Assembly: GCA_020443325.1 (NCBI GenBank)
Contig: JAGRIK010000020.1
Span: 1 to 33,334 of the forward strand
Source: Halioglobus sp.
Lineage (GTDB): Bacteria; Pseudomonadota; Gammaproteobacteria; Pseudomonadales; Halieaceae
Direction of reading: 5' to 3'
DNA: 33,334 nucleotides
How positions within the stretch are numbered: position 1 is the first letter of the stretch; every line of letters starts with the position of its first letter. The notes under the pieces are model-generated. The model was not told the DNA's origin. It did no database searches and saw only the letters and a program-made list of their open reading frames with translations. Made by a program: the position numbers and the translations under genes. Below, piece after piece: positions 20,638 through 25,930 of the stretch.

Positions 20638-21147
20638 ATGGCCGCACGGGGCATTAACAAAGTCATCCTGGTAGGTAACCTGGGCAATGATCCGGAAGTC
20701 CGCCACACGGCGAACGGCACAGCTGTCACGACGATCTCCGTCGCCACCGGAGAAACGTGGAAAGACAAGCAGACCGGGCAACCGCAGGAGCGGACAGAGT
20801 GGCATCGTGTGGTGTTTTTCAATCGTCTCGCGGAGATCGCCGGGGAGTATTTGCGCAAGGGCTCCAAAGTGTATGTGGAGGGCAGCATACGCACGCAAAA
20901 ATGGCAGGATAAGGAGGGCCAGGATCGCTATACCACTGAGATCGTGGCCAATGAAATGCAGATGCTCGACAGCCGTGGCGCCGGCCAGGGTGGTGACGGT
21001 CAATCAAGCTACAGCCAGTCAGGCTACGGCGAGCAACAGCGAGCGCCGCAGTCCAGTGGACCGCGTTCTGGGGGTGCGTCCCAGCCGCAGGGCGGTGGTG
21101 CCCCCGCTACCGATTACAGCAACTTCGATGATGACATCCCGTTCTGA
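20638..21147 (+). CDS. ssb: Single-stranded DNA-binding protein
   Basis: SSB is a 169-residue tetrameric protein that coats single-stranded DNA in replication, repair and recombination. The OB fold occupies about 1-110 ([60 protein letters not shown]). A Gln/Ser/Gly-rich disordered linker follows (about 114-158), then the acidic partner-binding tip DDDIPF at the very end. GAGGAAA precedes the ATG. The CTG-AATATG-CAG sequence just upstream is too short to be a LexA box. Confidence 0.98.
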
Positions 21148-23828: not shown

Positions 23829-25055
23829 TCAGTCGGTATATTTCTGGAAAACCAGCGACGCGTTAGTGCCACCAAAACCAAAGCTGTTGGACATGACCCG
23901 CTGCAGGTCGACGTTGTCGTGGCGGGTGATGGCAATGGGTAGCCCGGCGGCCTCGGGATCCAGCTCTTCGATATTGGCCGAGGCGGCAATGAAGTTGCGC
24001 TGCTGCATCAGCAGGGAGTAAATGGCCTCCTGCACGCCGGCTGCGCCCAGTGAATGCCCGGACAGGGATTTGGTCGAGCCGATCACCGGAATAGTCGCCT
24101 GCCCCTCGTAAACGGTGCGAACGGCCTTCAATTCCTGGATGTCGCCCGCGGGGGTGCTGGTGCCGTGTGCGTTAATGTAATCCACCGGGCCATCGACAGT
24201 GCTGAGCGCCTGTTGCATGCAACGCACAGCTCCCTCACCGGATGGCGCGACCATGTCGTATCCGTCAGACGTGGCGCCGTAGCCAACCAGCTCAGCGTAG
24301 ATTTTTGCACCCCGGGCTTTCGCGTGCTCCAGTTCCTCCACGACCAGCATGCCGCCACCACCGGCTATAACGAAACCGTCGCGGTTGGCGTCATAGGCGC
24401 GCGAGGCTTTTGCCGGCGTGTCGTTGTATTTTGTCGACAGTGCGCCCATCGCATCGAACAGGCAGCTGAGTGTCCAGTGCAACTCTTCACCGCCGCCGGC
24501 GAAAACCAGATCCTGCTTACCCAGCTGGATCTGTTCCATGGCGTTGCCGATACAGTGCGCGCTGGTTGAGCAGGCCGACGAAATGGAATAATTCACGCCC
24601 TTTATTTTAAACGGCGTGGCGAGACAGGCCGAGACAGTGCTGCCCATTGTCTGGGTGACCCTGTAGGGTCCGACACGACGCAGGCCCCGCTCACGCAATA
24701 TGTCGGACGCCTCTACCTGGTTTGAGGAAGAAGCGCCGCCAGAGCCGGCGATTATCCCGGTGCGTACGTTGGAGATAACGTCTGGCGTCAGGCCGGCATC
24801 ATCAATCGCCTGCTGCATTGCGATGTAGGCATAGGCCGCCGCATCACCCATGAAGCGCAACTGTTTGCGATCGATGTGCGCGGCGATATCGATATCCGGC
24901 GCCCCGGACACGTGCGATCGCATACCGATATCAATCTGTTCCTGGTTCAGGCTGATGCCTGAGCGACCTTCAAAAAGGGACTCAGAGACGCTGTCCGCGT
25001 CGTTACCCAGGCAAGAGACAATACCCAGTCCTGTGATGACTACTCTTTTTCCCAT
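23829..25055 (-). CDS. fabB: 3-oxoacyl-ACP synthase I (KAS I)
   Basis: FabB is a 408-residue condensing enzyme needed to elongate unsaturated acyl chains downstream of FabA. The catalytic Cys162 lies in [13 protein letters not shown]. Two histidines follow in [11 protein letters not shown] (His297) and [11 protein letters not shown] (His334), with Lys329 just before the latter. [14 protein letters not shown] ends the domain. Length and motifs are normal, with no sign of decay. It starts 4 nt after the fabA stop, behind GGAG at about 18 nt, so expression probably depends on the fabA transcript. Confidence 0.97.
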
Positions 25056-25059
25056 AGGG

Positions 25060-25575
25060 CTAGAAAGACTCCGTTGATTTGAAGAGGCCGACTCTCAAGT
25101 CTTTTGCGGTATAAATCTCTTTGCCGTCTACCGAAAGACTGCCATCGGCCATTCCCATGATCAGTTTGCGCTCGATGACGCGCCTGATGTTGATGTTATA
25201 GACTATTTTGGTGGCGCTTGGCAGTATCTGGCCGCTGAATTTTACCTCACCGCATCCCAGTGCGCGCCCGCGCCCCGGATTTCCCCGCCACCCCAGGAAA
25301 AATCCCACGAGTTGCCACATGGCGTCAAGGCCCAGGCAGCCGGGCATAACCGGGTCGCCGGGGAAGTGGCACTGGAAAAACCAGAGATCGGGATTGATAT
25401 CCAGTTACGCGATTTTCTCATTTTGTCCATAATCGTTGCCGTCGGAACTTATATGGGCAATTCGGTCGATCATCAGCATGTTGTCAGTGGGTAGTTGGGC
25501 ATTGCCAGGACCGAAGAGCTCACCGTTGCCGCATGCAATCAGGTCATCCTTGGAGTAAGTGCTTTTCGCGATCAT
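25060..25575 (-). pseudogene. fabA: fabA with an in-frame TAA at codon 57 (3-hydroxydecanoyl-ACP dehydratase/isomerase)
   Basis: FabA makes the cis-3 double bond that starts unsaturated fatty acid synthesis. Read from the ATG at 25575, the frame runs 171 codons, the usual FabA length, with TAA as codon 57 (25407-25405). Before it: [20 protein letters not shown] and NMLMIDR. After it, in the same frame: [20 protein letters not shown] (58-77), [19 protein letters not shown] and the normal C-terminus GLFKSTESF. Catalytic His70 and Asp84 lie after the stop. The internal ATG at 25347 starts beyond His70, so reinitiation there could not give an active enzyme. E. coli and P. aeruginosa FabA have Glu here (from memory). 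There is no frameshift or other decay; either a recent mutation, readthrough or a sequence error is possible. Confidence 0.9.
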
Positions 25576-25930
25576 AAAGTTTCCAGTAGGCGTTGGATTC
25601 GGGCGCTGCATGCGCCAGGCTTCTTGTCTCGGGATATTTTTGGCTGCGAGGCCGAGACTGCAAGGGGAGACGGTCAAGCGCACCATTTTAATTGCTGCGT
25701 TTCACAAGTCCAGTGGTTTGAACCAAATTGCAGGCCGTGGACTCCGGATGGGTTTCGGGCCAGATTTCCATGGGAATAGTGCACCGTCTCACGTTTGAGG
25801 CTACTGAAAAGGCCTTTTGCTGGCCAAAAATAGTGCCTTCGGATACCATGCACAGGCTGCATGCACCCGCCGTGGAGCGGTGCACAACACTAACAAATCA
25901 AACAATTTTGGCGTGCAACAGGGGAACCAG
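25576..25930. promoter_or_regulatory. Divergent fabA / manC intergenic region (355 nt)
   Basis: No gene is called here. On the fabA side are a hairpin GGCGC-TGCAT-GCGCC (25602-25616) and an inverted repeat GTCTCGG (25626-25632) with CCGAGAC (25652-25658), which would fold in the fabA leader. Further up is the near-palindrome TGGTTTGAACCA (25714-25725). Toward manC is the perfect palindrome AAAAGGCCTTTT (25807-25818). A minus-strand TAAAAT (25690-25685) could be a -10 for fabA but has no good -35; I found no convincing manC promoter. Confidence 0.4.

Follow-up and report, generated by a model that had tools for sequence, protein, structure and literature searches.

Does an in-frame stop codon ahead of the catalytic residues of FabA mark a real loss of this enzyme in a bacterium of the Haliea/Halioglobus group (Halieaceae), a gene that is used in spite of its stop, or an error of the assembly? 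The question is raised by a stretch of 33,334 nucleotides (the window), which is the whole of contig C146 in a draft genome, G000, of 4,706,817 bases in 365 contigs (89.96% complete), which its named relatives put close to Haliea and Halioglobus. The site lies mid-contig and the window contains no N. The features concerned are the following:

25060..25575, minus strand: fabA frame, 171 codons followed by TAG, with one TAA inside (codon 57)
25408..25575, minus strand: fabA codons 1-56, which alone should be translated, without a catalytic residue
25405..25443, minus strand: fabA lesion patch, codons 45-57, with 17 of 39 bases different from the closest relative
25405..25407, minus strand: in-frame TAA at fabA codon 57, Glu in every orthologue (43 of 43) and in every named relative with a FabA motif (78 of 78)
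25060..25404, minus strand: fabA codons 58-171 and stop, well conserved, including His70 and Asp84
25684..25720, minus strand: fabA upstream block, CAAACYACTGGACTTGT then TTAAAATG
23829..25055, minus strand: fabB, intact, its start 4 bases past the fabA stop

Consistent with the first-pass annotation, the fabA frame (25575-25060) carries a TAA at codon 57, ends on TAG and shows no net frameshift. His70 and Asp84 are intact and, as also reported there, are both encoded 3' of the TAA, so that the gene does not specify FabA as one uninterrupted chain. Read through the stop, the translation scores 290.1 bits against TIGR01749, above the family cut-off of 238.15, and 159.6 bits against PF07977; the C-terminal piece alone falls below that cut-off with 215.8 bits, and codons 1-56 alone score 63.2 bits over profile positions 2-50. 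The gene is thus still recognisable and carries a presumably inactivating lesion, the stop lying before the catalytic residues, which corresponds to the definition of a pseudogene. Compared with the TIGR01749 FabA proteins of fabAB operons, the window copy is the same in length, in its order with fabB, in His70 and Asp84 and in its conserved upstream block, but differs by the TAA and by a rewritten hairpin (see below), and an active protein would not be expected from such a sequence. The fabB gene directly downstream had been described as intact and is so: its product of 408 amino acids scores 718.9 bits against the FabB model (cut-off 630). A second fabA, which had been put forward as a possible bypass, was not found in the 4.71 Mb of G000 (89.96% complete), nor was a contig with a second fabA allele. 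Apart from fabA, PF07977 matches in this genome only FabZ and the C-terminal portion of an acyl-CoA-ligase-like open reading frame of 581 amino acids, and multidomain FabA-like frames, present in the genomes G017 and G056, were not found in G000. Among the papers listed by a literature search (15 of 125), none deals with a natural bacterial fabA nonsense allele, as judged from titles and abstract openings.

The same annotation held that only codon 57 was changed, which proved too narrow. Between fabA of the window and that of the closest relative (locus L020, genome G016), 72 of 513 bases differ. Codons 45-57 (39 bases) account for 17 of these differences and the other 474 bases for 55; the densest 13-codon window of this comparison was equalled in 15 of 20,000 shuffles of codon order. 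The anomaly is therefore larger than first described, since the patch spans codons 45-57 and not a single codon. Non-synonymous divergence (NG86 dN) against G016, G001 and G008, respectively, reaches 0.557, 0.523 and 0.479 in codons 45-57, vs 0.030, 0.083 and 0.060 in codons 1-44 and 0.023, 0.019 and 0.041 in codons 58-171, the latter range (0.019-0.041) bearing out the earlier statement that the C-terminal two thirds are well conserved. With dN of 0.019-0.083 in the flanks vs 0.479-0.557 in the patch, the three relatives do not indicate relaxed selection along the whole gene. Indeed, outside the patch dN is 0.02-0.03 and dS 0.45-1.4 against G016, and this part of fabA is under strong purifying selection.

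The changes also concern residues that are otherwise conserved. The full-length FabA orthologues compared came from 43 of the 50 other genomes that exceed the family cut-off (none of the seven left out was flagged for a stop). Against these 43, the residues private to the window are at positions 47, 51, 52, 54, 57 and 142. Five of these six fall in a stretch of 11 codons; of 200,000 random placements, 35 were clustered as tightly. Columns 47, 52 and 57 are invariant in all 43 orthologues, codon 57 being a sense codon (Glu) in every one of them, which answers the comparison of close relatives proposed earlier; column 54, a Lys in the window, holds I, L, M or V in each of the 43. The same three columns are Gly, Gly and Glu in the 78 named relatives, from 80 loci, in which a FabA motif was seen, a set that overlaps in some genomes with the 43 orthologues. 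On a structure model of an intact relative (the best of five, with a mean pLDDT of 87.9 vs 68.9-76.8 for the other four; codon n is residue n + 2 of the model), the patch takes in the loop that joins strand 38-43 to strand 53-59, together with the beginning of the latter strand; it would thus correspond to the beta1-beta2 loop and the start of beta2 in the first predicted beta-hairpin of FabA. Because the protein changes are clustered and little has changed elsewhere, the pattern speaks for a single event rather than slow decay.

The region upstream of fabA has been kept. In the four aligned genomes, CAAACYACTGGACTTGT is identical except for one base and TTAAAATG, which follows it, is identical throughout, while the remaining leader varies. 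The single sigma-70-like match of this region (25712-25685) overlaps the block, for a mean chance expectation of 1.1 matches. The block is possibly a regulator site plus promoter. In Pseudomonas, a conserved 30-bp sequence upstream of fabA is described (PMC3462791).

We searched for the sequence from which the patch could derive. In the neighbourhood, no candidate source scored higher than what 300 control stretches gave. In its own genome, the patch 19-mer has no match with three mismatches or fewer besides the patch itself; the 20-mer has one match, with exactly three mismatches (one for the reversed-pattern control, chance estimated by hand at about 0.3), and the 18-mer has four, all with exactly three mismatches (none for the control, hand-estimated chance of about 3). 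The patch 27-mer was not found in 17 relatives of the genus, and the 18-mer has no exact match in viral contigs. Modelling the patch as a +2/-2 indel pair improved the alignment by 7-8 points for four of nine relatives, by 3 points for two and not at all for three, the closest relative being among the last. The patch could come from a complex local mutation, from a short patch of illegitimate recombination or from an artefact. Short-patch double illegitimate recombination (SPDIR) gives clustered mutations over short patches, and the fabA lesion resembles its products in being a short stretch with many simultaneous changes and intact flanks; it differs from them in that no donor sequence was found in its own genome, the genus or the viral contigs.

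The quality of the assembly was considered through other genes. None of the 137 SDR-family matches across G000 contains an internal stop. When 87 genes from six contigs were compared with G016, stops appeared in three, two of which have the stop before the start Met and the third of which is a frame antisense to a 385-amino-acid thiolase-like frame; a gene entered this comparison through a single long match, and a frameshifted one would drop out of it. Seven queries had been excluded for partial coverage; the five of them that reach 75% identity or more were listed and include no broken gene. Four of these were inspected closely, and one runs past a contig end. Where looked at, the assembly is apparently clean elsewhere. 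A chimeric contig was also considered and rejected: neither side of the patch stands out in third-position divergence from three relatives, which is even across the region and gives therefore no sign of a species-level chimera.

Among the 34 correctly framed genes of the window (manC and galU were left out), clusters of residues private with regard to three relatives are densest in fabA, with seven in 11 codons, followed by ssb with six. By the number of differing bases alone, the patch in fabA is no more than the fifth densest distinct spot among window genes in the comparison with G016 and the fourth with G001, and with G008 it is not in the first eight; ssb and a transporter have denser spots. 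The patch is distinctive in that its changes strike conserved residues. The six private residues of ssb (20638-21147, codons 23-33) still look like those of an ordinary SSB, include no stop and probably reflect ordinary divergence or a recombined patch.

The stop is not shared with relatives. The only other flagged TAA (locus L034, genome G023, contig C55) lies in the last few codons of fabA and is a different case, a small C-terminal truncation in which the TAA comes a few codons early (VGLY*PTESF). The FabA frame of Mangrovimicrobium sediminis (L057) is likewise short, with 170 codons. Fifteen other genomes of the genus have a full-length fabA with no stop inside and also possess a desaturase, and as they keep a stop-free fabA despite this desaturase, FabA seems worth keeping in the genus. 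The two genus genomes lacking a full fabA (G010, contig C77, and G017, contig C386) are uninformative on its loss, because in both of these fragmented genomes the contig breaks off within fabB before fabA is reached; that both end there may be either coincidence or a feature that breaks assemblies. More broadly, a FabA motif was seen upstream of fabB in 78 of the 80 named loci and was missing in L096 and L127, the latter (Methylophaga sp. UBA2689) showing none on the fabB strand within 3 kb upstream of fabB. In the same order, two well-completed genomes (G043 and G053) have no FabA over the cut-off and their full-length matches to FabB of the window are only 37-40% identical; the FabAB pair thus seems to be naturally missing from some members of the order.

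Could the interrupted gene nevertheless be used? That the TAA is read through or suppressed, giving full-length FabA, would agree with a frame open to its normal end, with constraint that continues past the stop and with the retention of the upstream block and of fabB. Ochre suppression, suggested in the first-pass annotation, found no support: no tRNA with a TTA anticodon is among the 26 genes called by ARAGORN (27 Rfam tRNA matches in G000), a set that is incomplete, since tRNAs for Ala, Ile, His and Trp are missing from it as well in this 89.96% complete genome, so that the absence is no proof. Read-through is moreover unattractive because the patch replaces the invariant G47 and G52 and brings a Lys to column 54, where each of the 43 orthologues has a hydrophobic residue, and none of these orthologues has a stop at codon 57; we regard it as very improbable. 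Even less credible is a split enzyme, formed by the 56-residue piece and a re-initiated C-terminal piece. Both His70 and Asp84 do lie within codons 58-171 and a CTG stands immediately 3' of the TAA, but CTG start codons are rare, the first ATG, GTG or TTG downstream of the stop is the codon of Met77, already past His70, and the break would fall inside the predicted beta-hairpin. Taken together, any functional use of the stop-containing gene is highly unlikely, and the narrower idea that it serves by read-through or as two pieces, with the rewritten hairpin as part of the arrangement and not as damage, is scarcely plausible.

There remain explanations in which no FabA is made from this sequence, or in which the sequence is wrong. 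An old pseudogene, under relaxed selection in a lineage where FabA has long been dispensable, would suit the presence of a desaturase, but this reading is hard to reconcile with the values outside the patch (dN 0.02-0.03 and dS 0.45-1.4 against G016) and with just one private residue outside it, and we hold it for very doubtful. The pattern is better explained by one local recent lesion, or by an assembly artefact, than by prolonged decay or an isolated nonsense change. The artefact, i.e. a misassembly, a gap-fill or the path of a minority variant that replaced 39 bases of an intact fabA by wrong sequence, is a possible though distinctly less probable explanation than a real lesion. The genome is a draft of 365 contigs, the protein-altering changes are limited to about 40 bases whereas the decay of a real pseudogene would be spread along the gene, the rest of fabA and the upstream block look functional, and the own genome, the neighbourhood, the genus and the viral contigs yielded no source for the patch. 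Against it, other genes give the impression of a clean assembly, and the site is far from a contig break, in a window that contains no N. If the assembly is a short-read graph assembly, the patch would moreover have to be present in several reads.

We lean, without great assurance, towards a real loss-of-function allele. The stop and the clustered lesion are absent from the examined relatives, the rest of the gene is under strong constraint, the assembly is clean where looked at, no second fabA was found, and the fabB, fabZ, fabF and desaturase genes are intact. Several observations weigh on the other side: 15 other genomes of the genus keep a stop-free fabA alongside the desaturase, other spots of the window exceed the patch in raw base differences, no donor for a one-step event was found in the own genome or nearby, and the conserved upstream block and the low dN show no further decay. 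In addition, strain Ivo14 of the OM60/NOR5 clade, without desaturase genes, is presumed to depend on the oxygen-independent route (PMC3679898). Unless raw reads reveal an assembly error, the locus is thus probably an otherwise ordinary broken gene that is locally odd.

If the loss is real, gene content suggests how the cell could do without FabA. G000 encodes one FabZ (TIGR01750, 192.1 bits) and one FabF over the cut-off (629.9 bits, intact), and has six PF00487 matches. One of these is an intact protein on contig C71 with three His boxes (HRLWSH, HRRHH and HNYHH); three such boxes are the hallmark of fatty-acid desaturases, and we take those of the C71 protein to be of the stearoyl-CoA type. 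Relatives of this protein are present in 18 of 18 genomes of the genus, although G011 has its copy in two contig pieces. The C71 protein is not labelled DesA here, because it scores 59.9 bits against the DesA equivalog NF049918, below the cut-off of 400. Desaturase, FabZ and FabF may together offer an aerobic bypass of FabA. In the proposed sequence of events, one recent local event would have rewritten about 39 bases of the fabA beta1-beta2 hairpin, leaving a TAA; ribosomes would stop at codon 57 and release a 56-residue peptide without any active-site residue; the dehydration of saturated chains would fall to FabZ and their elongation to FabB/FabF, and unsaturated chains would be supplied by the oxygen-dependent C71 desaturase. 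The earlier proposal of a recent nonsense mutation with a bypass thus stands as regards a desaturase that could bypass FabA, and fails as regards a clean single nonsense change.

There are laboratory precedents for such a bypass. In P. aeruginosa, the growth of a delta-fabA strain can be supported by DesA or by DesB when aerobic conditions are suitable (PMC10634369), although Tian et al. report that fabA is essential unless desA is mildly over-expressed (PMC10269440). In view of the former result, the essentiality of FabA, invoked in the first-pass annotation, is a weak argument in a bacterium that has a desaturase. The likeness to these P. aeruginosa strains is that FabA is lost and that a membrane desaturase could give unsaturated chains in air; the difference is that those are laboratory deletions, whereas the window loss would be natural and is putative, and the C71 enzyme is a candidate for a role like that of DesA or DesB. 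In Congregibacter litoralis (OM60/NOR5 clade), omega-7 chains are proposed to arise via desaturases and omega-6 chains without oxygen, and the oxygen-dependent position of the double bond is explained by desaturases together with an oxygen-independent pathway (PMC3679898). A polyunsaturate synthase is also described as compensating for lost monounsaturate synthesis (PMC8174602); G000 yielded no FabA-like domain of this type.

For annotation practice, a premature stop should lead one to look for a surrounding cluster of changes before calling it a point nonsense mutation. For the organism, if the allele is real, this would be a natural lineage that gave up the oxygen-independent synthesis of unsaturated fatty acids by FabA; its membrane would depend on oxygen, and it would be a natural counterpart of the laboratory fabA suppressor strains.
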